This document shows, in pieces, positions 24,227 through 44,004 of a DNA stretch of 61,208 nucleotides. Under the pieces are notes generated by a model. That model ran no database searches, was not told the DNA's origin, and saw nothing but the letters and a program-made list of their open reading frames with translations. The position numbers and the translations under genes are program-made. This DNA is from Bacteroidaceae bacterium (GTDB lineage Bacteria; Bacteroidota; Bacteroidia; Bacteroidales; Bacteroidaceae), in the NCBI GenBank assembly GCA_017555585.1, contig JAFZGA010000001.1, positions 1 to 61,208 on the forward strand. Reading direction: 5' to 3'. How positions within the stretch are numbered: the first letter of the stretch is position 1; each line of letters starts with the position of its first letter.

Positions 24227-25945
24227 TCATGAAACCATCAATGTAATGAACACTCCCCATAGGATAAGCAATGTGTTTCCTACGGCATATGTCACAGTAT
24301 ATCCCAGTGCCGGAGTCTCGCTGCCCAATGTCTCCTGTATTGCTCCTATGGCTGCTGTAGTTGTTCTTGCTCCGGCACAACAGCCCAATGCTATGGCAGG
24401 GTGGAACTTGAACCAGCGCGATGCAATGAATATACCGAACAGCAACGGCAACGATGTGGCAATAATTCCTGCGACGAAAAGCGACAATCCTGCCTCCCTG
24501 AAACCTTCAATGAATCCCGGACCTGCCGAAATACCGACAATGGCAATGAATATGTTCAGTCCCATATTGTTGAACACCCACAATGCAGCCTCGGGTATTG
24601 CACCCATCGTGGGGTGGTGGGCACGCCACCAGCCGAAGACAAGACCTGCTATCAGCGCACCGCCACTGCTGCTAAGGCTCAACGGAACACCCTTGATATG
24701 TAATGTAAGTGTGCCGATAACTGCGCCGATGAGAATACCCAACGACATGTACACGATATCAGTCTCGTTTGTGGCAGGGTCGGGATATCCTATCTCCTTT
24801 GCCGCATGCATCACGTCAATCTTCTTACCTACAAGCTCAATGACATCGCCTGTATCCAGTTTCGTTTCGGGAAACACAGGTATATCCACTCCCATACGTC
24901 GTATGCGCTGTATGCTCACACCATGCATGAAAGGTTGTGCACGCAGTTCGCTCACCCTCTTGCCGTTGAACGACAAGGCACGTTTGCGGTTTTTACCGGC
25001 AACGGTAGTCTTTATCACCATTACTGGGAAACTCAACAAAACATCGTCATCTACCTCCTTGCCAATCCACTGTTCCTCACCAATGGTATATTCATATCTG
25101 CCACTGAGGACCACCTCGTCACCTATATGCAGTTTCTCCTTGCTCCGTACATCATCAATGATATTATTTCCCTTGCGTATACGTTCTACAAAAAGTCTTT
25201 TTCCCTGTTCATTGAAAAGACGTTCAAGCTCTTCGACATTGCGTCCTTTCCTGAACCAACTGTTTTCAATGCAGTAGCTTCTGAACTCGACTTCACGCTT
25301 TGCACCTACTATTCCGGGCTTCTCGCTGTCGTCCTTACCCATACTGCTTTCAAGTTCACGGCATGCAGCCTTCACCTTCTCCATTCCGCCAAGCATGCGA
25401 GGTCCCAACTTGGACAAGATCCATGCCGAACCGGCAGTACCGAAAATATATGTCACAGCGTATGCCACAGGGATAATGTCGAGCATTTTCTGCTTGTCGC
25501 CATCAGGTATTGACAATCCGCGAATTGTATCATCGGCAACACCAATTACAGCACTTATTGTCTGTGAACCCGATAACAACCCTGCAGCCTCTCCGGCATT
25601 GTAACCCATCAGCAACGATATGACCCAAGTGCTTACAAGGATAAAGACACACATGACCACTGCAAAGAGCACCTGCGGCAATCCCTCCTTCTTTAACCCA
25701 GCAAAGAACTGCGGACCGACTTTATAGCCTATGGCAAAGAGAAACATCAGAAAGGCAGTCTGTTTCAGTGCACCGGTCATGGGAATATCGAGTTGCCCAA
25801 CGACAACACCAACAAGCAACACACTTGTTACGATACCCAAGCTGAATCCCTTGATATGAACCTTGCCTATGAGAAATCCCAATCCCAATGTAAAATAGAT
25901 GGCAAGTTCAGGATGCGAACGTAGTAATTCTGTTATCCACTGCAT
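24227..25945 (-). CDS. aspT: Aspartate:alanine antiporter AspT
   Basis: A 572-aa inner-membrane exchanger of the AAEx family. The start at [13 protein letters not shown] is preferred; the frame extends 32 codons further without family sequence. Two membrane halves (about 8-165 and 375-570) flank a cytoplasmic region with two RCK-C/TrkA-C-like modules (about 195-360; [30 protein letters not shown]). The repeated [18 protein letters not shown] and [19 protein letters not shown] segments are transport motifs. With AspD it forms a cycle that consumes a proton and creates membrane potential, useful for acid resistance and energy. Confidence 0.94.
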
Positions 25946-26062
25946 AAGATTTGTTTTTTTGTAGATAACGTTGTATCGCAGGGATTTGTTCTGTATGGCA
26001 GATATGTGAACAATATGGAAAAAACAGGATAGGTATGCCATTAAATTTCATATCTTTTTTTG

Positions 26063-26070
26063 TAGATTTG
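26063..26070 (+). promoter_or_regulatory. -7 box of the WYL regulator gene
   Basis: TAGATTTG matches TAnnTTTG and lies 35 bases before the start of the WYL gene. It sits in the divergent region shared with aspT. A TTTTTTTG run is just upstream. Confidence 0.45.
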
Positions 26071-26104
26071 TAGCGAACATTATAAAACCTTTGATTTATA
26101 GTTT

Positions 26105-27049
26105 ATGGCATCAAATTTATTCGGTAGATATGTTTGGTTAATAGACCTGTTGCGTCAATATAAACATTTAAGCTATAAAGAGATCAATGCCAAATGGCAA
26201 AAAAGTGGACTTAGTTATGGTGAAGGTGATGATATACCTCTTCGCACATTCCACAATCATCGTGCAGCCATCAAGGATATATTTGACGTATATATTGAAA
26301 TTGATCCAGAAGTTTCAGGATATAAATATCATATAGAAGAACCAGAACGGCTTCAAAGTGATACGCTTCGTTCCTGGCTGATAGATTCATATGCAACATT
26401 GAATCAACTTCAGGCAGATAAAAAACTTGAAGGACGTATCCGATTCGAAAATATACCTTCAGGAGGTAAATGGCTTACGCTATTCATGCAGGCAATGCGT
26501 GAAAACAAGGTTGTGGAAATAACTCATCAAGGCTTTGGCAAAGAGTGTACCAGCACATTCGAAATAGAGCCATACAATCTAAAAGTGGTGAAACGCCGAT
26601 GGTATGTAATTGCAAACAACCCATATTACGCTGACTGTAATCGACGTCAAAACAATAATTTTAAAGAGATTCGTGTGTATGGTCTTGACCGTATACTTAA
26701 AGCCAATATACTTGATAAAACATTTGAAATAAAACCAGGGTTTAATATCGATAAGTTCTATGAGGGATGTACTGGTGTAATTCCAAGTGATGATGATATT
26801 GAACATGTAGTACTTCGTGCATACTGGAATGCCCCGGATTATCTTCGTACTCTGCCATTACATGAATCACAAAAGGAAATTGAAAGCAACGACGAGTACG
26901 CTCTGTTCTCGTATGACGTAAAACTAACATATGATTTTCTTCAACTCATAATGCAGCAAGGCGACCAGATAGAAGTTTTAGAACCAGCTTCCTTGCGTGA
27001 ACAGATGAGAAATGTAGCCAAGAGATTAACCAGTTATTATGATGTATAG
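26105..27049 (+). CDS. WYL-domain transcriptional regulator
   Basis: A 314-aa protein. The N-terminus (about 1-75) is a winged-helix region (LIDLLRQYKHLSYKEINAKW; PLRTFHNHRAAIKDIF). The WYL domain covers about 130-215: FMQAMRENKVVEITHQGF, then KRRWYVIANNPYY, the motif that names the family. A WCX-like C-terminal domain (about 230-314) ends the protein. WYL regulators such as BrxR and CapW repress defence loci and respond to nucleic-acid or nucleotide ligands. It stands 135 bases upstream of, and on the same strand as, the two DUF262 genes, so it is the likely regulator of that pair. The AT-rich sequence differs from the flanking core genes. Confidence 0.88.
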   Translation: MASNLFGRYVWLIDLLRQYKHLSYKEINAKWQKSGLSYGEGDDIPLRTFHNHRAAIKDIFDVYIEIDPEVSGYKYHIEEPERLQSDTLRSWLIDSYATLNQLQADKKLEGRIRFENIPSGGKWLTLFMQAMRENKVVEITHQGFGKECTSTFEIEPYNLKVVKRRWYVIANNPYYADCNRRQNNNFKEIRVYGLDRILKANILDKTFEIKPGFNIDKFYEGCTGVIPSDDDIEHVVLRAYWNAPDYLRTLPLHESQKEIESNDEYALFSYDVKLTYDFLQLIMQQGDQIEVLEPASLREQMRNVAKRLTSYYDV

Positions 27050-27184
27050 CACGAAGCTCTGCTACAGAAAATCATTTGACGATAAATTCAATTTCATTAT
27101 CAGGTGATACAGTATTGCACGCAAGACTATCCTTGAAAAAAACAAAGACACTATCAAATAGATTAAGAAATAATAATTTCAGAT

Positions 27185-28738
27185 ATGGATCATAATGTTT
27201 CAATAAAGTCAATAGACGATTTTACCCAAGGCACCCGTTTCTATATTCCAAGCTATCAACGAGGATATAGATGGAAAGCCAAACAGGTGTCTCAACTTAT
27301 CAATGACATAATCTCCTTCCAACAAACAGAGAAGACTCCGTTCTATTTTTTACAGGCATTAGCTGTTGCAAACGACGAAAAGAACAACAGGTATAACGTT
27401 GTTGATGGACAACAACGCCTGACAACCATCAAACTGATTTTAGGAGAGAACGATAACAGCATCAGCATTTCATATGATAGAGAAGCGGACAAAGCGTTGG
27501 ACCGTCATTTCAAATCTGAAGCGACGAAGAAAATCAAAGAGCTGTTAGGTGAAGAACAAAGTGATACAAGAGTTGCTTTCTGCAAGAAACTTAAAACATG
27601 TTGCCGTTTTCTATTCTATCAAGTATCCAAAGAAAAGGAACTTGCAACATTCAATGAACTGAACAGTGGGAAAATAGCTGTTAAGGATTCCGAACTGGTA
27701 AAATGTATCATGCTTGGTGTCAACAGTGACGAACCAACCTCTGTTACACAAGCCAGAGCTGTAGAATGGGATACGATAGAAAGAGAACTCAATAAACAAG
27801 ATTTCTTTGCTTTTCTTACACCACGAAACACATGGAAGGAAAATGATAGAATGACTGTAATGCTTCGTTATGCCGGTATTTCTCCAAATAGAGAGACTGA
27901 TGAGGTATTCCCTTTTCTGGCAGAAATACAAAAAGAACTGGAAACATATTCCCGAGAATCGGTATGGAAAAAGATTTGTGCAGCATATTACCGACTGATA
28001 GCATGGTACAATAATCCGCTCCTGTATCATGCCTTTGGAGTAACAGTGCATAAAAAAGGTAGAGAAGGGATTCCATCAGTAGTCGATGGCTATAACATAA
28101 AAGGTGATGTTACAGCAATGTCAGAATATAAACCAGATAAAGACTTGAATGACTATAAGAACGGAGGTGAGAAACTACATAATTATCTGCTATTGAGCAA
28201 TGTTGCATTCTGTTGGAAACGATGGCCGATGCGATATAGTTTCTCTAAACACCGCAACATTGAAGGATGGTCGTTGGAACATATCTTTGCCAGAAACCAG
28301 AAAGATCTTTCCGAAGATGAACTCAAAGAATGGATTCCCGGAATAACTGAGTCACAAATAAAAGAGTACCAAGAAGCATGTGAAAAAAATCATAATGGAG
28401 ATGCTTGGTTAAAGGAACATCTAAATGAAGAATATCCGAAACAAGAGGACAATACAATAAAAAACCTTGCTTTGCTACCCACAAATGCAAATTCTTCACT
28501 CAATAACAAACTATTCAACGGCAAGAGGAATGCTATAAGAGATTGGGCCCATCAATCCTGGAAAGATTATTGGGCACCACCAGCAACCGAAGCTGTATTT
28601 ATGAAATCTCTTGTGAATCTCAATCCTAACATACCATATTGGTCTGAAGATGATAAAGAATCATATCTAACGGCTATGGCTAATGATATTAAAAGTTTTA
28701 TTGAAGCTATAAAGACTATAAAGGATATAACATTATGA
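27185..28738 (+). CDS. DUF262-DUF1524 putative nuclease (GmrSD/SspE type)
   Basis: A 517-aa protein. The N-terminal DUF262 domain carries IPSYQRGYRW (21-30) and VVDGQQRLTTIKL (72-84), the ParB-like nucleotide-binding signature of GmrS. A third DUF262 element is FNELNSGKIAVKDSELVKCI, with NSGK where NxRG is usual. The C-terminal DUF1524 domain shows the HNH-type nuclease pattern: WSLEHIFARNQ with His366, then NLALLPTNANSSLNN from Asn427 and a conserved GKR. Such fusions (GmrSD, BrxU, SspE) cut phage DNA, often DNA with modified bases, in an NTP-regulated way. Its stop overlaps the next start (ATGA), so the two products are probably made together. Target is unknown. Confidence 0.88.
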   Translation: MDHNVSIKSIDDFTQGTRFYIPSYQRGYRWKAKQVSQLINDIISFQQTEKTPFYFLQALAVANDEKNNRYNVVDGQQRLTTIKLILGENDNSISISYDREADKALDRHFKSEATKKIKELLGEEQSDTRVAFCKKLKTCCRFLFYQVSKEKELATFNELNSGKIAVKDSELVKCIMLGVNSDEPTSVTQARAVEWDTIERELNKQDFFAFLTPRNTWKENDRMTVMLRYAGISPNRETDEVFPFLAEIQKELETYSRESVWKKICAAYYRLIAWYNNPLLYHAFGVTVHKKGREGIPSVVDGYNIKGDVTAMSEYKPDKDLNDYKNGGEKLHNYLLLSNVAFCWKRWPMRYSFSKHRNIEGWSLEHIFARNQKDLSEDELKEWIPGITESQIKEYQEACEKNHNGDAWLKEHLNEEYPKQEDNTIKNLALLPTNANSSLNNKLFNGKRNAIRDWAHQSWKDYWAPPATEAVFMKSLVNLNPNIPYWSEDDKESYLTAMANDIKSFIEAIKTIKDITL

Positions 28739-31032
28739 ATAACGTTCTAACGCAATATACGCAAGTTCCGAGCAATCTGTTTGCATTGCTTTCAAGATAC
28801 CGTGTCATCATTCCCGGTATCCAACGTCATTATGTACAGGGTGCAAACAAGCCTGAAGCAAAGAGTATCAGGGAGAATTTCATTAATGAGATATTTGATG
28901 TCATAGAAGAAAAAGAAAAGAGATTGAATCTTCATTTTATATATGGTCCAATCAATACAGATGGTGAAGATTCATTTGTTCCCGTAGACGGCCAGCAGCG
29001 TTTGACTACATTATGGCTTATAGCACGATATGCGACTGAAAAAGTGTTGGAAGAATCTTCACGGAAGGATATTCTTGCTCTGCTTGCCCGATTTTCTTAT
29101 GCTGACAGGATTCATGCCACCCGTTTCTGCCAAGCACTTTCATCAGTCGATTCTCATTGGAATATAAGTAAAAATCCCATGAAAGATATTACCGGTCAAT
29201 CATGGTTTTGGGATTATTGGACAGAAGACGAGACCGTTTCATCAATGCTAAGAATGCTGTCTACAATTCATGAAGTCTGGGAAAAACGTAAGCCAAACAG
29301 CTGTCAAGTACTTGAAGCATTGGCAGAAAGGATAAGTTTTGAACTCAAGATAGACAATTTTGGTGATGACATTTACATGAAGATGAATGCACGCGGGCTC
29401 CAACTCACACAATGGGAGAATTTCAAGTGCAAGTTTGCCGATGAACTTGGTAATTTTGGTGAAGCCTGCAAACAAAATTGGGATAAAGAAATAGAAAAAT
29501 TATCAAATGATTTTTTTGAGAATAAACCGGAATTGCCTGACAACTCACTATTTGCCTTATTGGCAAGAATATTTGTTTATGTCGGTAAGGAACAATGCAA
29601 TGAAGCTATATGTCAGCTTGCCAGATTTACCCACAGAACTTGGGAGAAAATAGAATTACCGTTTGTTCCTTATTCTAATTTCTTATCAATTATACGGTCA
29701 GGTATCAATCTAAAGGATATTGCTGATACTGTATTGTTGATGACAGGACGAATTATTGGCAATGCTACAAAGAAAGTTCCATATTTTGGCGATAAATGTT
29801 TGTTCGACACATTCTTTCATCCTCGAAATATAAACGAACTAGATTTTTCTATTTGTTGTTTCGAGTACTTTACTAAATACAAGAATGTTACCGATGAGGA
29901 GTTCCTACAGGCAATGCGTCTCATATGGAACATACTTGAAAATACAGACGAAGGTAAAAAGCCATACAGTAGAGTAGCTATAATAAAGAAATTCATAGAC
30001 CTTGATTCACCGACATTATATTCTCCAAATGCAAATAAAATAACAGATGATGCTAAACAAATAGAAGAGGAAAAACAGAAATCTATAAAGATTTACGACT
30101 TAAATCAAGAATGTCCAAATGATTGGGATGAAAAAGAACTTGGTTCCTGGAACGGTTGGAAAACAGCTATCGAGCTTGCTGAAAGTGAAGCATTTTTCAA
30201 TGGATCTATTCGATTCCTTATTTATGATGAAGAAGGCCAACCTACATGGAATAATTTTGCTACAAAACTCATAAATTGCCGAAAGGTATTCTGCGACCAA
30301 GGCCTAAAAGAGGGGAAAGAAAAGATTACAAATCAAGTACTTATTTCTCATTGCAAGAGTTGGAATATAATACGTAATCGTCCTATATTCGATAAAGGAA
30401 AGGATAGTTGGAAGCGTCTACTTACCAGCAGACAACTTATTTATGCTATCAACAATATGTTGCTTAATCCCTTTACAATTGCCGATGTTGTCCCAGCAAT
30501 CAACGCAGACAAGGAGATTATCAAAAAATTGCTAACAGATGAAATCTGGGAGAATCTGATCAATAAAGCCGAAGGATACATTGTTGACTATTACAACAAC
30601 GTGCCAAGTTTATGGCTAAAACGATACCCTTCATTGACACTGACACTGCTACGTGAAAACAGAGAAGACATTCTTGATGAGTTTAATACACGGTATAAAG
30701 AATATATACAATTTGAATTAGAAGATTCTGATAGATTCTTACACCTGAATGGTACAAACCACTACTATGCTATTCCTGTTTTTTTCGTATATTTATATAG
30801 AGGAAAAATTATATCTTTGCATGGAAAAAAATATAGATTTGCCTGGCAAACCTGGGGATGGATTGACATGTATGATGATAAGAAAAGACTATATGACCTT
30901 TATTTTGCCAAGTATAATAAAGGATTCAATATCCCGATTGAAGCCGACACAAATGCTGAAGGTTTTATTCAACAACTTAATGAAATTATTGAGAGATATG
31001 AGGATTTCTTGATTCATACATTAAACAATTGA
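28735..31032 (+). CDS. Second DUF262 protein, partner without DUF1524
   Basis: A 765-aa protein overlapping the preceding gene by 4 bases. DUF262 signatures are intact: IPGIQRHYVQG (26-36), VPVDGQQRLTTLWLI (82-96) and YMKMNARGLQLTQWENFKCKF with Asn218, Arg220 and Gly221. The remaining 500 or so residues are helical with many Trp and aromatic residues and no HNH, PD-(D/E)XK or other nuclease pattern that I can recognise. It therefore looks like a regulatory or target-sensing NTPase subunit paired with the nuclease subunit upstream. A strong terminator follows 130 bases later. The extreme C-terminus (FAWQTWGWIDMYDDKKRLYDL) is distinctive. Confidence 0.82.
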   Translation: MNNVLTQYTQVPSNLFALLSRYRVIIPGIQRHYVQGANKPEAKSIRENFINEIFDVIEEKEKRLNLHFIYGPINTDGEDSFVPVDGQQRLTTLWLIARYATEKVLEESSRKDILALLARFSYADRIHATRFCQALSSVDSHWNISKNPMKDITGQSWFWDYWTEDETVSSMLRMLSTIHEVWEKRKPNSCQVLEALAERISFELKIDNFGDDIYMKMNARGLQLTQWENFKCKFADELGNFGEACKQNWDKEIEKLSNDFFENKPELPDNSLFALLARIFVYVGKEQCNEAICQLARFTHRTWEKIELPFVPYSNFLSIIRSGINLKDIADTVLLMTGRIIGNATKKVPYFGDKCLFDTFFHPRNINELDFSICCFEYFTKYKNVTDEEFLQAMRLIWNILENTDEGKKPYSRVAIIKKFIDLDSPTLYSPNANKITDDAKQIEEEKQKSIKIYDLNQECPNDWDEKELGSWNGWKTAIELAESEAFFNGSIRFLIYDEEGQPTWNNFATKLINCRKVFCDQGLKEGKEKITNQVLISHCKSWNIIRNRPIFDKGKDSWKRLLTSRQLIYAINNMLLNPFTIADVVPAINADKEIIKKLLTDEIWENLINKAEGYIVDYYNNVPSLWLKRYPSLTLTLLRENREDILDEFNTRYKEYIQFELEDSDRFLHLNGTNHYYAIPVFFVYLYRGKIISLHGKKYRFAWQTWGWIDMYDDKKRLYDLYFAKYNKGFNIPIEADTNAEGFIQQLNEIIERYEDFLIHTLNN

Positions 31033-31161
31033 TATGCTTACCAAATTCAGCGGTGAACAATCGGCATCAGTTTTTTAGAGGATGATAAACCTTAGTCTTG
31101 CAAAAGAAAATGGTTTTATCATTATCCCAATTTATAGAAATCACATTATTTAAACTTTTCA

Positions 31162-31196
31162 TGGAGGTATGCTTCACTTTGGCATACCTCCTTTTC
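31162..31196 (+). terminator. Terminator of the DUF262 operon
   Basis: GGAGGTATGC (31163-31172) and GCATACCTCC (31182-31191) form a perfect 10-bp stem followed by TTTT. It closes the operon before a new promoter-like box. Confidence 0.8.
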
Positions 31197-31204
31197 TAAT
31201 TTTG
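31197..31204 (+). promoter_or_regulatory. -7 box of the 75-aa gene
   Basis: TAATTTTG, an exact TAnnTTTG match, follows the operon terminator directly and lies 39 bases before the next start codon. Confidence 0.5.
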
Positions 31205-31243
31205 CACCTGATAATTTACATTTTAAACTTAATTCATCAGATT

Positions 31244-31471
31244 ATGGCACTTTGGAAAATTTCAGTAAAGGACAGCGGAATCATTAATGGAGTACGCATT
31301 GAAAAGGGTATGTCAATAGAGTATGTAACCAAGAGCACTACACCGCCTCTTCAGCAACTATCACAGCACAAGGATACTATCAACCAATTATTCAAGAACA
31401 AATACGGTGTTGATCTTGGTAAGGTTGGAATAATTAATGTAGGCAGAATGTCTTGCGAAAAAATATCGTAA
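31244..31471 (+). CDS. Small protein of unknown function (75 aa)
   Basis: Starts MALWKISVKDSGIINGVRIEKGMSIE and is basic and compact, with a beta-rich N-terminus and a short C-terminal helix. The frame opens further upstream, but the part before this Met overlaps the terminator and promoter box. It resembles short orphan proteins common in accessory DNA of Bacteroidales; I cannot name the family. It has its own promoter-like box, so it need not belong to the DUF262 operon. Two decayed reading frames follow it. Confidence 0.6.
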   Translation: MALWKISVKDSGIINGVRIEKGMSIEYVTKSTTPPLQQLSQHKDTINQLFKNKYGVDLGKVGIINVGRMSCEKIS

Positions 31472-31521
31472 AAAAACAGAGTTAAGCTGATTCAATATTT
31501 ATTGTATAATTACCAATTACT

Positions 31522-31786
31522 ATGGAATCCATATTAAACGATGAACAACTATTGAAATGCGCAACCGAAGAAGCATGGTGTATTTTATCTGAAGAGTTTG
31601 AGTAGAGCGAATCTCTGTTAGAGAAATACCAGGATAAATTGAATTAAAATCCATATGAAAAGGATCCTATAGGCTTTTATGAGAGGTATAAAAATATATC
31701 AAATAATACTTAAAGAATCAGGTTTACGGGACTCAATAGTAGATGTTCATAAAGAACAACTTTTATCGGAAATTAAATGTGATTAA
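31522..31786 (+). pseudogene. Decayed small gene(s)
   Basis: A frame opening MESILNDEQLLKCATEEA meets TAG after 27 codons, continues with gene-like sequence (SESLLEKYQDKLN, then NPYEKDPIGFYERYKNI) across a second stop, then ends. A different frame takes over with a 35-aa tail (31679-31786, MRGIKIYQIILKESG to KCD). The pattern fits one former gene of about 85 codons with two in-frame stops and a frameshift. I do not recognise the protein. Confidence 0.45.
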
Positions 31787-31799
31787 GTTTACGATATAT

Positions 31800-31845
31800 A
31801 AAATCTCTGCACCTGTTCATCTGAGCCGGTGCTGAGATTTTTTTG
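31800..31845 (+). terminator. Terminator after the decayed gene
   Basis: AAATCTC-T-GCACC and GGTGC-T-GAGATTT form a long stem followed by a run of eight T. Confidence 0.75.
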
Positions 31846-31870
31846 CAATGATGTGTTGTGAGGTCATACA

Positions 31871-31975
31871 GAGATCTTTGACAATGCTTGTTTACCGCAT
31901 CCCACGCGGTGCAAGCTACGCCTGCACTACGCGTGACTAATTGCTACAAGCATTGTCGAACTGAACTTTCGTCGC
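31871..31975. repeat. 105-bp hairpin element, copy 1
   Basis: Identical to 32440-32544. The element has outer arms GACAATGCTTGT and ACAAGCATTGTC (12-bp perfect inverted repeat) and inner arms CACGCGGTGCA and TGCACTACGCGTG (imperfect). The whole can fold into a long two-stage hairpin. It ends at GAACTTTCGTCGC, after which the copies diverge. Confidence 0.85.
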
Positions 31976-32073
31976 GTACGCTCCAGCGAGATGACACGGT
32001 ACGCGTTTGCGGATTTTCCATCAGCATTGGTAATGTCCCAAGGACGGCACCGTTGAAAAATCCAACGCAAGGC

Positions 32074-32178
32074 CGGTTGTTTTCAGGCCATTGTGCGAGG
32101 CTGTTTGAGCGTAATGCGGATATATATTATTCCAAATATCCGCGTGGAGCGAGTTCCGCAGCACCCTGAAAACAACCG
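32074..32178. repeat. Nested inverted repeats in non-coding DNA
   Basis: CGGTTGTTTTCAGG (32074-32087) pairs with CCTGAAAACAACCG (32165-32178), a perfect 14-bp stem. Inside it GCGGATAT (32116-32123) pairs with ATATCCGC (32136-32143). The block sits between the two 105-bp hairpin copies. No credible coding frame crosses it. Confidence 0.75.
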
Positions 32179-32230
32179 AAAGCCTGGAGTGACGAACAGA
32201 CGACCGACCGAAGGCTCACATATGTGGCCT

Positions 32231-32370
32231 GAGCAAAGGACGTTTGTGAAGATTTTTCCCGTGTGCCGAGCTCTTTGGTACTTTCTGTCGGTACAGAAAG
32301 TACATAAAAGAAAAACTACAAAAAGAATAAACAACAAAAGCACTAAGGTTAAAAACTACGGTGGAATACA
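32231..32370 (+). repeat. Dispersed intergenic repeat, copy B
   Basis: Diverged copy of 42-170. Its hairpin is GTACTTTCTGT (32278-32288), loop CGGT, ACAGAAAGTAC (32293-32303), an 11-bp perfect stem with sequence different from copy A. Both copies end with GTGGAATACA. Confidence 0.65.
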
Positions 32371-32439
32371 ACGGATTCTTCGATGTTTTACAACGAGCAT
32401 AAACAGCATCGCTAAAGGCAAATCTCATACATTTTTTTA

Positions 32440-32544
32440 GAGATCTTTGACAATGCTTGTTTACCGCATCCCACGCGGTGCAAGCTACGCCTGCACTACG
32501 CGTGACTAATTGCTACAAGCATTGTCGAACTGAACTTTCGTCGC
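32440..32544. repeat. 105-bp hairpin element, copy 2
   Basis: Exact copy of 31871-31975 in the same orientation, 569 bases apart. It is followed by about 110 bases with no recognised feature before the stop of the leftward secreted-protein gene. Confidence 0.85.
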
Positions 32545-32655
32545 ATGCGCTCTGTCGACATGACATGCTTCGCGGATTCCGGGTGTGTTTTGCAGACACG
32601 GCATGCCGTGTCTCTACTTTCATACGTCAGCTCTACAATATATTACAGTCCGTTT

Positions 32656-33309
32656 TTACCTCCCAGTATGTTTCAGGAAGAGGCTCAAATCGAAATATAC
32701 CCTGCGGAATTGAAATCTTCTACTTGGTTCAACAACAATTATATTGCATAGTGTTTCGGTATCAAGCTGGCGTGAAATCTCTTCCTCTATATCCAGTTCG
32801 TGGAACAGCACATAATTCTGGTCATCGAGAGCAATGACCTTGAACGGCGAATCTGAAGTGTTGCCTTTGCCATACGCTGTTATCATTTCAAGTATACTCC
32901 TGTACTTTGTAACATAAGAATTGGTTTCAGCCTCACTTTTCCCCAACTCTTTCGACGCTATGATAAGGTTGAAGAGTGCATTCAGGCTCACAGGGTTATA
33001 TTCCATGATCCTTTTTGCAGTGTTGTATGCCTCGGCATGGTTGCCTTCATTGTGGAACCTCTTCAATGCCTTTTCGTTATCGTCGTTGCCTGGGTTATAT
33101 TGTGGCAAGAATGCCTGCCCGTAATATACAAGCGCAACATCATCGGTGCGTATCATCGGATCATCGTTCCTGTAAATCTCTACAATCTCCTTGAAGTATC
33201 CGGGTTCATTCCTTACAATATCCTCTATAGTAGCAAAGTCAAGAAGAACCTGTGCATTGGCAATGAATGCCATGATACATAACACCGATGTTGTTATTAG
33301 CCTGTACAT
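32656..33309 (-). CDS. Secreted DUF4919-like protein
   Basis: A 217-aa protein with a signal peptide (MYRLITTSVLCIMAFIANAQ). The mature part has DDVALVYYGQAFLPQYNP, a motif typical of the Bacteroidota DUF4919 family, and helical repeat-like sequence (HAEAYNTAKRIMEYNPVSLNALFNLIIASKELGK) resembling TPRs. It probably acts in the periplasm; function unknown. It begins 6 bases after the GH13 gene, so it is the third gene of a fabD-GH13 operon. Its 3' end borders the repeat cluster. Confidence 0.7.
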   Translation of the reverse strand: MYRLITTSVLCIMAFIANAQVLLDFATIEDIVRNEPGYFKEIVEIYRNDDPMIRTDDVALVYYGQAFLPQYNPGNDDNEKALKRFHNEGNHAEAYNTAKRIMEYNPVSLNALFNLIIASKELGKSEAETNSYVTKYRSILEMITAYGKGNTSDSPFKVIALDDQNYVLFHELDIEEEISRQLDTETLCNIIVVEPSRRFQFRRVYFDLSLFLKHTGR

Positions 33310-33315
33310 CTTACA

Positions 33316-35001
33316 TTATACCTTGAATTTAAGTATTACACCGCTGTTTGCCGGTACTGTAATATCTATTTTGTCAAAAGGATTGAATGTAAGTTCAACG
33401 TTTTTGCCGCTCAAAAGTTCGGTTACACTTTGTTTTTCGTTATTGTATGTTGCTCCAAAATATGCAAAAGCCTCTTCGGGTACTGTTACGGAGCACTCTT
33501 TCTCGTTGTCGCTGAAGTTAGTCACAACAAGCAACAACTCTTTTTCTGTACCTCTCAGGTATGAGAATATATGGTTGCTGTCGTACTTGTCGCAATGTGG
33601 GTTGGCATACTGTATTCCGTAGAATGCACCTTCGGCAAGTGCCTTTTCCTTATTACATAGGTTGAGCAGGTGCGAATAGAACGCATGCAGGTTCTTCTCC
33701 TGCTCGGTAAGTTGTTCGCCCGAATAGTCACCGTTGCCTTTCCAACGACGCAATGTGTCTACACTCCAATAATCGAAAATTGTTGTTCGTCCGTCAACAC
33801 CACTGTAACCCTCCTTGTCCATGCCACGCTCACCGAACTCCTGTCCTGCATAGAGCATGAAAGGCTCTGTTCCTGTTGTTGCCGAAACGATGAGTGCCGA
33901 TAATGCACGTTCCGCCTTTGCAGCAAAGAAGTCCGATGCAATGCGCTGCTCGTCGTGGTTCTCGAGGAATGTGAGCATGTTGCCACGGATATCCGATGTA
34001 CTTTGCAGAGCATAGCTGATTTCGTTTGCTGATCTCTGACCGTTCATCACAGCACGCAATGTATCATAGAGCCCCACCTTGTCATAAAGATAATCGAAAT
34101 GACCATCCTTGATGAACGAACGGTAAATGTGTGGCTGGTATATCTCACCTATGAATATTATTCCGGGGAACTCCTCCTTGATCTTTGCCACAGCCCAGTT
34201 CCAGAACTCCACAGGGGTCATCTCCACCATGTCGCAACGGAAACCGTCGACACCCATTGCTGCCCAGTAACGGAGAATCTTGAGCATCTTCACCCATGTA
34301 TTAGGAACAGGCGAGAAGCAACGGTTACCAGTGCGGTAGTCAATACCGTAGTTCAGCTTCACAGTGTCGTACCAGTCGTTGCGACCTGGTGAGCCGAAGC
34401 AGTCGTTACCTGTTGCACGCAATGGTGTCTCGCTGTACTCCTCATCGGCACAATCCTTGGCATCGAGGTTGCAGCCGTATGAGCTGTTGCCAAGATAATA
34501 GAAGTTGTTGTGTCCTGCATAGAACACGTTCTTGTCGTCATGCTCTCCGAAGCTGTACGTACCCTTTGGTGTACAGTCGCTATGGTAGTGGCGTGCCACA
34601 TGGTTAGGAATAAAGTCCATGATCACTTTCATGCCAGCCTTGTGTGTGCGTTCGATAAGTGCCTTGAACTCCTCGCGACGTTGCTCGACGTTCACTGCAA
34701 GGTCAGGGTCATTGTCATAATAGTCCTTTATGGCGTATGGCGAACCGGCCTCTCCCTTTACTATGGCAGGGTGGTCGGTTGGTATACCATATTTGCTGTA
34801 GTCGCTACGTGTAGTGTGCTCAATGACACCAGTGTACCACACATGGGTAGCTCCGGTGTTGCGTATCGCACGCAGGGCAGCAGGTGTGATGTCGTTGAAT
34901 TTTCCACAGCCATTCTGTTCTATTGTTCCGCCGGCAATGCAGTTTGCGTTGCTGTTACCAAAAAGTCTTGGCAATAATTGATATACTATAATCTTGGACA
35001 T
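33316..35001 (-). CDS. GH13 alpha-amylase family enzyme
   Basis: A 561-aa enzyme without a signal peptide, so probably cytoplasmic. GH13 regions are intact: I, VIMDFIPNH (127-134); II, DGFRCDMVEM with nucleophile Asp257; III, IFIGEIYQP with acid/base Glu286; IV, FLENHDEQR with Asp350. The C-terminus (about 470-561) is a beta-sandwich domain C. It likely acts on alpha-1,4 glucans or their breakdown products. It sits between fabD (19-base gap) and a secreted protein gene (6-base gap), an unusual partner set. Confidence 0.92.
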   Translation of the reverse strand: MSKIIVYQLLPRLFGNSNANCIAGGTIEQNGCGKFNDITPAALRAIRNTGATHVWYTGVIEHTTRSDYSKYGIPTDHPAIVKGEAGSPYAIKDYYDNDPDLAVNVEQRREEFKALIERTHKAGMKVIMDFIPNHVARHYHSDCTPKGTYSFGEHDDKNVFYAGHNNFYYLGNSSYGCNLDAKDCADEEYSETPLRATGNDCFGSPGRNDWYDTVKLNYGIDYRTGNRCFSPVPNTWVKMLKILRYWAAMGVDGFRCDMVEMTPVEFWNWAVAKIKEEFPGIIFIGEIYQPHIYRSFIKDGHFDYLYDKVGLYDTLRAVMNGQRSANEISYALQSTSDIRGNMLTFLENHDEQRIASDFFAAKAERALSALIVSATTGTEPFMLYAGQEFGERGMDKEGYSGVDGRTTIFDYWSVDTLRRWKGNGDYSGEQLTEQEKNLHAFYSHLLNLCNKEKALAEGAFYGIQYANPHCDKYDSNHIFSYLRGTEKELLLVVTNFSDNEKECSVTVPEEAFAYFGATYNNEKQSVTELLSGKNVELTFNPFDKIDITVPANSGVILKFKV

Positions 35002-41512: not shown

Positions 41513-42106
41513 ATGAAAAAGACATTGAATTCATTCATTGATTTAATTTTGACTCTCATTGTTTGTATACCATTCTTTTATCTGTTCGAATGGATAGGCT
41601 ACAGGAGAGATTGGTTGGATATACTGCTTACAGGAGCTGCTTCATCGGTCGTTTTCATTGCCGCAACAATACTTTTAAAACGCCTGAAAGGCTGTTCTAT
41701 AATAAAGGAGATTGTCAAGGGAGCTGCAACAATAGTCACAAGTACAACCCTCATTTATGCTGGATTTACTCTTTTGGAGTATATATTCCCTATGAGTAAA
41801 GATAACGGATTCACAGGAAACTGGGTACAGTGGTTATGCATGAGTTTCTCATTGACCATCTTTTTTTATTTCCAAGAGAAACGCAAAGAGCAAAGAAAAA
41901 AGAACGAGAATAACCTTGTTGTAGTAGCAGAATGCTCTGATAACAGTGAAGCAGAAACTATACGCAAAACATTGGAAAGCAACGACATTAAAGCAATGAG
42001 CGTAGAAAAGGAAAATCCCATGTACATAAAAAACGCCAACAAGGCAACAGTACAAGTACAAGTCTTGAACAAAGACCTGCAAAAAGCAAAGGAACTGATA
42101 AAGTAA
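41513..42106 (+). CDS. Membrane protein with DUF2007-like domain
   Basis: A 197-aa protein. Four hydrophobic helices occupy about residues 8-125, with a basic linker (KRKEQRKKNENN). The C-terminal 65 residues (NLVVVAECSDNSEAETIRKTLESNDIKAMSVEK to LQKAKELIK) match the DUF2007 putative signal-transducing fold, which is usually a separate small protein. The fusion puts that domain on the cytoplasmic face of the membrane. Function unknown. Confidence 0.75.
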   Translation: MKKTLNSFIDLILTLIVCIPFFYLFEWIGYRRDWLDILLTGAASSVVFIAATILLKRLKGCSIIKEIVKGAATIVTSTTLIYAGFTLLEYIFPMSKDNGFTGNWVQWLCMSFSLTIFFYFQEKRKEQRKKNENNLVVVAECSDNSEAETIRKTLESNDIKAMSVEKENPMYIKNANKATVQVQVLNKDLQKAKELIK

Positions 42107-42126
42107 AACTTCAATAAAGAGTGATA

Positions 42127-42161
42127 AAACAAGCTACATTTTGGTGTAGCTTGTTTTTTAT
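42127..42161 (+). terminator. Terminator of the DUF2007-like gene
   Basis: ACAAGCTACA and TGTAGCTTGT form a perfect 10-bp stem followed by TTTTTT. Confidence 0.85.
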
Positions 42162-42185
42162 ACATAAAACCGCACAGTATTCTAA

Positions 42186-42590
42186 GAATCCTCAAAAATC
42201 AAGAAATCCGGTCAAATATACACATCATGCGCAAATTTCAAAATCATATTAAACATAAGACGAGTATTTATGTTTAAATCCGCAGTTTTCCCAAAAATCC
42301 TTAGAATTTCAAATTTCCGTACAAATTCCCAGATAGTGCACAATTTTCAAAATCATATTAAACATAAGACAAGTATTTATGTTTAAGTGCACAATTAAAT
42401 GAATCCTCAAAAATCAAGAAATCCGGTCAAATATACAGATAGTGCGCGAATTTCAAAATCATATTAAACATAAGACGAGTATTTATGTTTAAATCCGCAG
42501 TTTTCCCAAAAATCCTTAGAATTTCAAATTTCCGTACAAATTCCCAGATAGTGCACAATTTTTAAAATCATATTAAACATAATATTCATT
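42186..42590. repeat. 215-bp tandem repeat built from ~107-bp subunits
   Basis: The unit beginning GAATCCTCAAAAATC at 42186 recurs at 42401, a period of exactly 215 bases, with few differences; the second copy is truncated near 42585. Each unit is itself two diverged subunits, starting near 42186 and 42294, both leading into TCAAAATCATATTAAACATAA. The first three subunits end in the hairpin AAACATAA-N9-TTATGTTT; the fourth has only the left arm. No reading frame spans it. The repeats are contiguous, without unique spacers, so this is not a CRISPR array. It fills the space before the aminotransferase promoter. Confidence 0.9.
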
Positions 42591-42752
42591 ATCATTCAAA
42601 AGTGATATAGAATCCGGGTAGTGCGATTATCAGTTATTTTATTGATATGAATCTCGCCAATTAGCTCGTGATCAGAACATTTGTTTCTGCCATATAATAA
42701 GATTAGTCCAAGGTTTGTAGTTATACCTTATTTATTATTGGAGGAAAAATTA

Positions 42753-42760
42753 TATCTTTG
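42753..42760 (+). promoter_or_regulatory. -7 box of the aminotransferase gene
   Basis: TATCTTTG, an exact TAnnTTTG match, lies 41 bases before the start codon and just after the tandem repeats. Confidence 0.55.
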
Positions 42761-42801
42761 CAAAGTTTTGCGAGTTGTAAATAATAAAAACAATAAATAT
42801 T

Positions 42802-44004
42802 ATGCCTAATCTTTCAGAAAGAGCCATTCTTATGCCTTCGTCGCCAATACGCAAATTGGCTCCGTTTGCTAATGCAGCTAAGGAACGTGGCTTGAAAGTT
42901 TATCACTTGAACATCGGACAGCCAGATTTGGATTCTCCTCAGATAGCTATCGATGCAATAAAGAAATTCGACAAAAAGATTCTTGAATATAGTCCAAGCG
43001 ACGGTTTTCTTTCATTACGTAAAAAACTTGTCGAATATTACGACCAATATCAGATCAAACTGACCCCTGAAGATATCATAGTAACATCAGGAGGTTCTGA
43101 GGCTGTGCTTTTTGCATTCCTCACTTGCCTTAATCCCGGTGATGAAATTATTGTTCCGGAACCGGCATATGCCAACTACATGGCGTTTGCGATATCAGCT
43201 GGTGCTGTTATCCGTCCAATACGCTCAACTATTGACGAGTCATTCGCATTGCCTCCAATGGAACGTTTCGAGGAACTTATCAATGAACGTACACGCGGTA
43301 TTCTCATCTGCAACCCTAATAACCCAACAGGTTATCTATACACACGTAATGAGATGAACCGCATACGCGACCTTGTGAAGAAACATAACCTGTTCCTTTT
43401 CTCGGATGAGGTTTATCGTGAGTTCATATATACTGGTTCACCATACATTTCAGCATGTCACCTCGAAGGAATTGAGGACAATGTTGTACTAATTGACTCT
43501 GTATCAAAACGTTATTCAGAATGTGGTATCAGAATTGGTGCTTTGATAACAAAGAATGTTGCTGTACGTCAGGCTGTTATGAAGTTCTGTCAGGCACGTT
43601 TGAGCCCCCCATTGCTTGGCCAGGTTGTTGCAGAGGCTTCAATTGATGCACCACGCTCGTATGCCATAAACACTTACGAACAGTATATCGAGAGACGCAA
43701 CTGCCTTGTAGATGAACTGAACAAATTGCCTGGAGTATACTCCCCTATCCCAATGGGTGCCTTCTACACTGTTGCACGCCTGCCAATTGATGACAGCGAC
43801 AAATTCTGTGAATGGTGTCTGACCGATTTTGAGTATGAAGGAGAAACAATCATGATGGCTCCTGCATCAGGATTCTACAGTGAGGAAGGATACGGAAAAA
43901 ATGAGGTACGTATAGCATATGCCATCGACAAGGCCGATCTGAAACGTGCAATATTCCTTTTGGGAAAGGCTCTCGAACAATACCCTGGACGTATAGAAAT
44001 ATAA
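42802..44004 (+). CDS. PLP-dependent aminotransferase (class I/II)
   Basis: A 400-aa enzyme with the fold-type I features of AspC/AlaT-like aminotransferases: NIGQPDLDSP near residue 37, TSGGSEA (95-101) for cofactor phosphate, ICNPNNPTG (169-177), SDEVYREF (201-208), and the PLP lysine Lys236 in DSVSKRYSECGIRIG. The C-terminal EVRIAYAIDK holds the substrate-carboxylate Arg. Amino-acid specificity cannot be assigned. Confidence 0.92.
   Translation: MPNLSERAILMPSSPIRKLAPFANAAKERGLKVYHLNIGQPDLDSPQIAIDAIKKFDKKILEYSPSDGFLSLRKKLVEYYDQYQIKLTPEDIIVTSGGSEAVLFAFLTCLNPGDEIIVPEPAYANYMAFAISAGAVIRPIRSTIDESFALPPMERFEELINERTRGILICNPNNPTGYLYTRNEMNRIRDLVKKHNLFLFSDEVYREFIYTGSPYISACHLEGIEDNVVLIDSVSKRYSECGIRIGALITKNVAVRQAVMKFCQARLSPPLLGQVVAEASIDAPRSYAINTYEQYIERRNCLVDELNKLPGVYSPIPMGAFYTVARLPIDDSDKFCEWCLTDFEYEGETIMMAPASGFYSEEGYGKNEVRIAYAIDKADLKRAIFLLGKALEQYPGRIEI

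Follow-up and report, generated by a model that had tools for sequence, protein, structure and literature searches.

A probable two-subunit, GmrSD-like restriction locus of the GrwAB kind, set behind a WYL gene in a Bacteroidaceae genome

Results

Gene content of the locus

We describe a locus in a 61,208-nucleotide stretch of DNA from a Bacteroidaceae bacterium (assembly GCA_017555585.1, contig JAFZGA010000001.1; hereafter the window), in which a WYL gene is followed by two genes for DUF262 proteins, all on the forward strand. The first of the two proteins, 517 amino acids (aa) long, carries DUF262 and DUF1524 domains and is called NUC; the second, of 765 aa, carries DUF262 and is called PAR (Table 1; L and G numbers denote the loci and genomes compared). 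The NUC and PAR open reading frames (ORFs) share 4 bases, and the GC content of the block is 0.34–0.37, against 0.44–0.52 in the closest flanking kilobases. A preliminary description, made from the sequence alone, had reported the three ORFs, their 4-base overlap and the AT-rich block, all of which is borne out by the ORF coordinates and base composition. The motifs it had named are likewise in place: DGQQR at 74–78, H366 and NLALLP at 427–432 in NUC, and DGQQR at 85–89 and NARG at 218–221 in PAR.

Table 1. Features of the locus and of the surrounding insertion (window coordinates)
Feature	Position	Strand	Evidence
Inserted block, ~6.7 kb	25970..32665		BLASTN against the same site in congeners G025 (L240) and G022 (L241)
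Predicted WYL-WCX transcriptional regulator, 314 aa	26105..27049	+	Pfam WYL and WCX over cut-off
NUC, predicted DUF262-DUF1524 nuclease subunit, GrwA-like, 517 aa	27185..28738	+	Pfam GmrSD_N; AlphaFold2 model; Foldseek
DUF262 (GmrSD_N) domain of NUC, aa 14–176, DGQQR 74–78	27224..27712	+	
Predicted His-Me finger core of NUC, aa 362–436	28268..28492	+	Invariant residues; DSSP
PAR, predicted DUF262 partner subunit, GrwB-like, 765 aa	28735..31032	+	Pfam GmrSD_N; NUC directly upstream in 104/106 relatives
DUF262 domain of PAR, aa 18–234, DGQQR 85–89, NARG 218–221	28786..29436	+	
Long C-terminal part of PAR, aa 245–765, no recognised domain or nuclease	29467..31029	+	
75-aa DUF6140 ORF	31244..31471	+	Pfam DUF6140, 6.1e-14
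136-nt repeat, copy 1	31870..32005		
136-nt repeat, copy 2	32439..32574		93% to copy 1

Conserved features of NUC and PAR

NUC matches the Pfam family GmrSD_N with an E-value of 3.4e-28. Across the 25 rows of its alignment A2, window included, Q25/R26 are nearly invariant and D74–R78, F156 and N160 invariant, so that the QR, DGQQR and FxxxN motifs are all present; the arginine of DGQQR is kept in all 98 ungapped rows. The histidine and asparagine positions of the presumed HNH motif, to whose conservation the preliminary description had tied its reading, hold throughout: none of the 105 rows, that of the window among them, departs from E365, H366, N427 or N436. In an AlphaFold2 model of NUC (mean predicted local distance difference test score, pLDDT, 80.3), DSSP places H366 at the end of strand 362–366, N427 just before strand 428–432 and N436 in helix 433–439. 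In the model, the His-Me residues thus appear arranged as in a beta-beta-alpha finger. At E ≤ 0.001, Foldseek returns only structures of DndI (9jfl) and SspE, for NUC (6 chains) as for PAR (5 chains).

PAR matches GmrSD_N as well (8.1e-17). Of 107 rows, 106 share its residues Q30, R31, D85, R89, N218 and G221 and the last is gapped; Q30/R31 together with all of D85–R89 are invariant in alignment A1. The preliminary description had recognised no nuclease in this protein, and indeed, besides GmrSD_N (26/26), no Pfam family is matched by more than one of 26 PAR members. Past the DUF262 domain, the PAR model is mostly helical up to about residue 520. With PAR, a sequence search of the Protein Data Bank (PDB) gave no match, and a plasmid search 17 records covering at most 48% of the protein, mostly its DUF262 end. 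NCBIfam gave nothing over cut-off. At two loci, a gene of the peptidyl-arginine deiminase family (PAD_porph) overlaps the end of PAR by 4 bases (L049, 4098–4934; L051, 4150–4986).

Linkage of the two genes

Recognising NUC by a C-terminal profile of our own rather than by Pfam GmrSD_C, we find its gene directly upstream of PAR and on the same strand for 104 of 106 PAR relatives (loci L033–L142); both exceptions (L056, L071) start at a contig end. This set includes three second copies of contigs (L044 = L112, L045 = L064, L051 = L128) and excludes the fused L063; the DUF262 proteins of L060, L061 and L062 are of another kind and stay outside the PAR count. PAR homologues devoid of NUC, which in the preliminary description would have spoken against a joint system, are therefore not the norm, and such linkage speaks against PAR as an ordinary stand-alone DUF262 protein. 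With longest-ORF starts, the gap between the two genes ranges from -209 to +31, most commonly -4 (23/104). NUC is split over two ORFs in L036 and L074, similarly broken in L139, and cut by the contig start in L041.

The search of 200 related genomes for PAR matched 29, own included, a patchy occurrence. We examined 30 regions from 27 of the 28 others, leaving out a weak match with stops in G057; at each of the 26 PAR-like loci with upstream sequence (24 genomes), NUC directly precedes PAR. When species genomes were scanned with the PAR alignment, NUC not being used, the best 80 of 142 relatives were spread over many phyla. One further genome search matched 21 of 288, the five read being four split pairs and one fusion; another matched 39 of 369, with two NUC-PAR pairs and three pairs of other order among the five read. 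Pairwise distances of NUC and PAR correlate closely (Mantel r = 0.875 over 91 rows, left of 105 after dropping second copies and truncated rows), none of 999 shuffles reaching this value or exceeding 0.16. Altogether, NUC and PAR form a conserved two-gene unit.

Natural fusions of NUC and PAR

In three genomes, both proteins are found as a single DUF262-DUF1524-DUF262 chain. A Victivallis metagenome-assembled genome (L063, 1878–5666) encodes NUC followed by PAR in one ORF of 1262 aa, with 50% identity to the window NUC and 40% to residues 12–506 of the window PAR. A second genome of the Victivallis group (L175, 2425–6147) holds a 1240-aa fusion, 96% identical to the L063 chain over 1142 residues and sharing its junction, which makes an assembly slip there unlikely; the L063 frame stops before that of the second fusion. 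The third fusion, of 1461 aa (L279, 3160–7545), comes from a genome of the window's own family and lies behind an exonuclease gene and a WYL gene with a stop.

We placed these chains in a NUC tree built by a quick method with Shimodaira–Hasegawa-like approximate likelihood-ratio (SH-aLRT) support, leaving out second copies as well as seven rows in which NUC is truncated or split. In it, the window joins the Victivallis-group fusions with full support, on a long stem; the third fusion clusters with L109, a split pair, and the two together stand next to the window's group (92% support). By this topology, fusion would have arisen twice, or one fusion would have split twice. Under either history, the fusions speak for a physical, one-to-one complex of NUC and PAR. 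The window pair itself is a divergent branch, its nearest kin being the Victivallis-group fusions (~50% and ~40% identity).

The WYL gene and its companions

The 314-aa protein matches Pfam WYL (8.8e-11) and WCX (6.5e-12), with no Pfam helix-turn-helix (HTH) match in its N-terminal 120 residues and no significant match to PDB sequences (best E 0.019). Its gene is the sole WYL match at E ≤ 0.001 in its own genome, which is 55.5% complete. Among the 78 pair loci that have 3 kb or more of upstream sequence, second contig copies dropped, our own WYL profile detects a same-strand WYL gene there in 13. Nine of these 13 also have a DEDDh exonuclease gene, and four more loci have the exonuclease alone; RNase_T is the family shown for five of the exonuclease proteins. 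As a baseline, Pfam WYL is found at 37 places in 41 related Bacteroidales genomes, about one per genome.

Relatives of the WYL protein with at least 52% identity occur at 25 places in 399 genomes of the family, window included, of which 24 were examined (that of G964 lies at a contig edge). The genes behind them vary: a split pair in eight loci, a fused pair in one, a single DUF262 protein in four (two of them cut and assigned by homology), a phosphoesterase with an SbcC/SMC-like ATPase in two, a PD-(D/E)XK protein in two (one cut and assigned by homology), function-unassigned operons in two (one with a phosphoesterase gene), and nothing recognisable as defence in five. The exonuclease adjoins WYL in 17 of the 24; the window has no such gene, WYL and NUC lying only 135 bp apart. 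L285 and L286 have the same genes on both sides, WYL-exonuclease on one and a phosphoesterase on the other, and differ in the core, a pair against a single DUF262 protein: a same-site swap. One upstream gene family is common to 8 of the 23 WYL loci compared; part of the pattern therefore comes from a hotspot in the chromosome and not from a mobile cassette.

At L061 and L109, the DEDDh exonuclease gene is likewise found ahead of a pair of DUF262 proteins that fall outside the window class. A Bacteroides-type promoter for the WYL gene finds no support: the pattern occurs once in the window, elsewhere, and no more often than by chance.

Insertion at an otherwise empty site

Homology to the same site in the two nearest congeners of the window genome, G025 (contig 12) and G022 (contig 30), ends at 25,969–25,973 and restarts at 32,666, the congeners holding 90 and 103 bp in between. 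There the flanking transporter and alpha-amylase genes adjoin, the amylase of G022 being cut by the contig end. The left flank gene encodes what we take to be an AspT-family transporter; on the right lie the DUF4919/alpha-amylase genes. Farther congeners have the same flanking genes 9.7 kb apart in another arrangement with no empty site (G018, L242) or about 49 kb apart (G002), and the other congeners listed with full matches have the two on different contigs. By this comparison, about 6.7 kb was gained at this site, or lost twice. G022 has another pair of the NUC-PAR class elsewhere (contig 57).

The insertion, about 25,970–32,665, is thus larger than the block of 26105..31032 delimited in the preliminary description. 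It contains the WYL, NUC and PAR genes, a DUF6140 ORF and two copies of a 136-nt repeat. Flanking repeats had been reported as well; within 25,800–33,600 this is borne out on the right side, with the repeats at 31870 and 32439. Among the four insertion ORFs searched by Pfam, the small ORFs of the repeats not being searched, no integrase and no second defence gene was recognised. With no integrase among these four ORFs and no transfer RNA gene in the window, a prophage or integrase-borne island has no support. In viral contigs, four stretches matched the PAR pattern and none encoded a PAR relative.

Of the remaining contents, the DUF6140 ORF lies just downstream of PAR; L132, L051/L128 and L119 have homologues no more than about 2.5 kb away from the pair. 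The 136-nt repeat matches 15 places in its own genome, copy 1 included, eight of them over all or almost all of its length; in three cases, two copies lie about 0.6–1.2 kb apart (contigs 1, 5 and 7). Nothing marks the repeats as a known RNA, there being no Rfam match in 25,900–33,400. Elsewhere in the window, the lowest GC content of any kilobase (0.32) is that of 42001–43000, with no ORF of at least 90 aa at 42196–42801; this kilobase sits between a 197-aa ORF and what is presumably an aminotransferase-like gene.

Discussion

We now propose that the locus is likely a horizontally acquired anti-phage restriction system with two GmrSD-like subunits, type IV and modification-dependent, of the GrwAB kind and placed behind a WYL regulator. 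The genes with their domains, the invariance of the catalytic residues, the linkage, the natural fusions and the insertion at an otherwise empty site are what we observe here. The preliminary description had arrived at a heteromeric type IV-like system; this was right in kind, two-protein GmrSD-like systems having been published, and the arrangement itself, which it could not place, has already been described (GrwAB, TgvAB).

By analogy with these two systems, the pair would defend against phages, act on modified DNA and need both subunits. NUC and PAR would form an obligate complex, probably one-to-one, whose DUF262 domains would bind and hydrolyse nucleoside triphosphates and help to sense modified bases in incoming phage DNA. 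PAR would contribute substrate recognition or licensing, and the His-Me finger nuclease of NUC would cut. As the biology of BrxR and CapW suggests, the WYL protein may hold the operon low and release it upon a nucleic-acid or nucleotide signal of infection.

Several observations weigh against this proposal. The GmrSD_C match of NUC reaches only 0.0079 (16.5 bits, the Pfam cut-off being 23), and in 25 NUC rows this family is found at E ≤ 0.01 in 19, not all; the His-Me residues are invariant in relatives all the same, and their placement in the model fits. The PADLOC 2023 hits of NUC, to HEC-06 (8.9e-21) and further GmrSD-like models, lie mainly in its DUF262 part, and for PAR that library offers nothing strong, its best model being Orf5 (2.9e-4). 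The third PAR motif reads Y214-xxx-N218, with a tyrosine where FxxxN has F, and pLDDT is under 50 over residues 522–542 and 544–741, some 220 C-terminal residues. Against SspE/DndI, both models have low template-modelling (TM) scores, at most 0.31 by query length. Joint inheritance accounts for part of the Mantel correlation. Upstream of the WYL and NUC genes there are just short imperfect inverted repeats, none assignable as an operator. Finally, the likeness to GrwA and GrwB of V. cholerae is one of architecture, gene order, motifs and residue spacing.

Since NUC alone has the full GmrSD architecture, it could be a self-sufficient single chain such as BrxU or Eco94GmrSD, PAR being a separate regulator or a blocker of phage inhibitors; the authors of TgvAB, where their paper discusses TgvA, leave open for it a regulatory or structural role or the overcoming of a phage inhibitor (PMC11411939). 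We hold this to be improbable: PAR directly follows NUC in nearly all relatives and shares one chain with it in three genomes, the D and R of its DGQQR are invariant, and in the published passages on GrwAB, mutation of either DUF262 or of the nuclease abolishes protection (PMC12137116). The pair might also, like SspE and DndI, recognise phosphorothioate, a mark on the DNA backbone, instead of modified bases, and structures of these two proteins are the sole significant fold matches of both models. Yet few DUF262 structures surfaced at all, so that the match says little on substrate, and a search confined to the four insertion ORFs recognised neither dnd nor ssp genes; we give a backbone mark a slim chance.

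The WYL gene, in turn, may be a bystander exerting no control over the pair, for most pairs do without one and its close relatives also precede other genes or nothing recognisable. At about one WYL gene per genome, however, chance neighbours would be far below one, if the Bacteroidales Pfam density fits all 78 loci (some from other phyla) and our own WYL profile; and where a different core follows a close WYL relative, it matches in some cases a nuclease or ATPase family or a defence-candidate model. A bystander thus seems unlikely, and by analogy the WYL gene is probably the regulator of the pair. Going further, we tentatively suggest, with rather more doubt than confidence, a family-wide control module with WYL and the DEDDh 3'-5' exonuclease as its fixed parts, joined in several loci by a calcineurin-like phosphoesterase at the opposite end. 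The nuclease core that these genes enclose would be exchangeable: it could be a GrwAB-like pair, split or fused into one chain, a lone DUF262 protein, a PD-(D/E)XK nuclease, or a phosphoesterase together with an SbcC/SMC-like ATPase. In such a module, the exonuclease would set the level of the nucleic-acid ligand of WYL, and the window would be a reduced form, with WYL and the pair only.

If our interpretation of the locus as a two-subunit GmrSD-like system is right, the two-protein GmrSD class gains a deep, divergent branch. The natural occurrence of both subunits in one chain argues for a one-to-one complex, the need for a second DUF262 protein being still unexplained in published work, and the fused chains would be convenient for structural work. 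The link of WYL to the exonuclease offers a testable idea on how such nucleases stay quiet. In titles and abstract openings of the open-access literature, we found neither an account of NUC-PAR fusions nor a description of the WYL-exonuclease link to such pairs, which is weak evidence of absence, subscription journals being mostly outside.

Comparison with known systems

The closest counterpart is GrwAB (Nat Microbiol 2025, PMC12137116), described in passages of that paper as a DUF262-DUF1524 protein encoded first and a DUF262 protein with C-terminal domains of unknown function second; its escapers map to a DNA-modification enzyme (PMC12137116, PMC12409362). As far as those passages go, the window agrees in having the nuclease gene first and its partner second, adjacent and on the same strand, in the QR and DGQQR motifs of both subunits, and in a long PAR C-terminus without DUF1524. 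It also shares the H...N...N order, N427 and N436 being nine residues apart, as are N521 and N530 of GrwA (H431); the spacing is 9 in the rows listed. The passages on GrwAB name no WYL gene, whereas the window has one, and the window NUC is shorter, N530 of GrwA already lying beyond its 517 aa. By its published positions GrwAB itself was not found, no NUC-PAR row having R81/H431/N521/N530 together with R86.

TgvAB (2024, PMC11411939) likewise comprises two DUF262 proteins of which TgvB alone has DUF1524, both being needed against phages with hypermodified cytosine according to the parts of the paper that describe them. The placement of the NUC histidine and asparagines relative to secondary structure is as described there for TgvB. 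The gene order differs: in TgvAB the partner comes first and the nuclease second, to go by the locus numbers and the ribosome-binding site before tgvA in the two-gene construct, and the window is reversed. Among gammaproteobacterial stretches, NUC-PAR pairs are present in L273 and L277, while in L274–L276 the larger of two paired DUF262 proteins is encoded second; by a simple pattern, this larger protein has the nuclease motif in L275 and L276, not in L274. The L274–L276 pairs score 66–122 bits on the NUC profile, against roughly 400–690 for most full-length members. Judged by order or by profile, the window pair is not of the TgvAB type.

NUC has the same two-domain plan as Eco94GmrSD, BrxU, SspE and DndI, the last two being its only significant fold matches. 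Eco94GmrSD, BrxU and SspE are described, in the portions of the literature that treat them, as single proteins, and DndI reads as a single chain from its PDB title; the window adds a second DUF262 subunit. In the relevant part of Machnicka et al. (PMC4619093), DUF262 genes are noted for often lying beside GmrSD homologues, and a review calls the two-protein requirement, where it takes it up, unusual and in need of study (PMC12409362). The WYL protein resembles BrxR and CapW, as portrayed in sections of PMC9122601, in having about 300 aa, a WYL domain near 120–200 and a C-terminal WCX-like domain, and in being encoded upstream of defence genes; it differs in lacking a Pfam-recognised HTH and a significant PDB sequence match. 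Those sections count type IV enzymes as 37 of 210 BrxR-associated systems, and a WYL gene upstream of candidate defence genes, the defence role of the pair being taken by analogy, is what we see in the window and in the 13 of 78 pair loci. Altogether, the arrangement is one already described, and the window holds a distant member of the GrwAB-like class rather than a new class.

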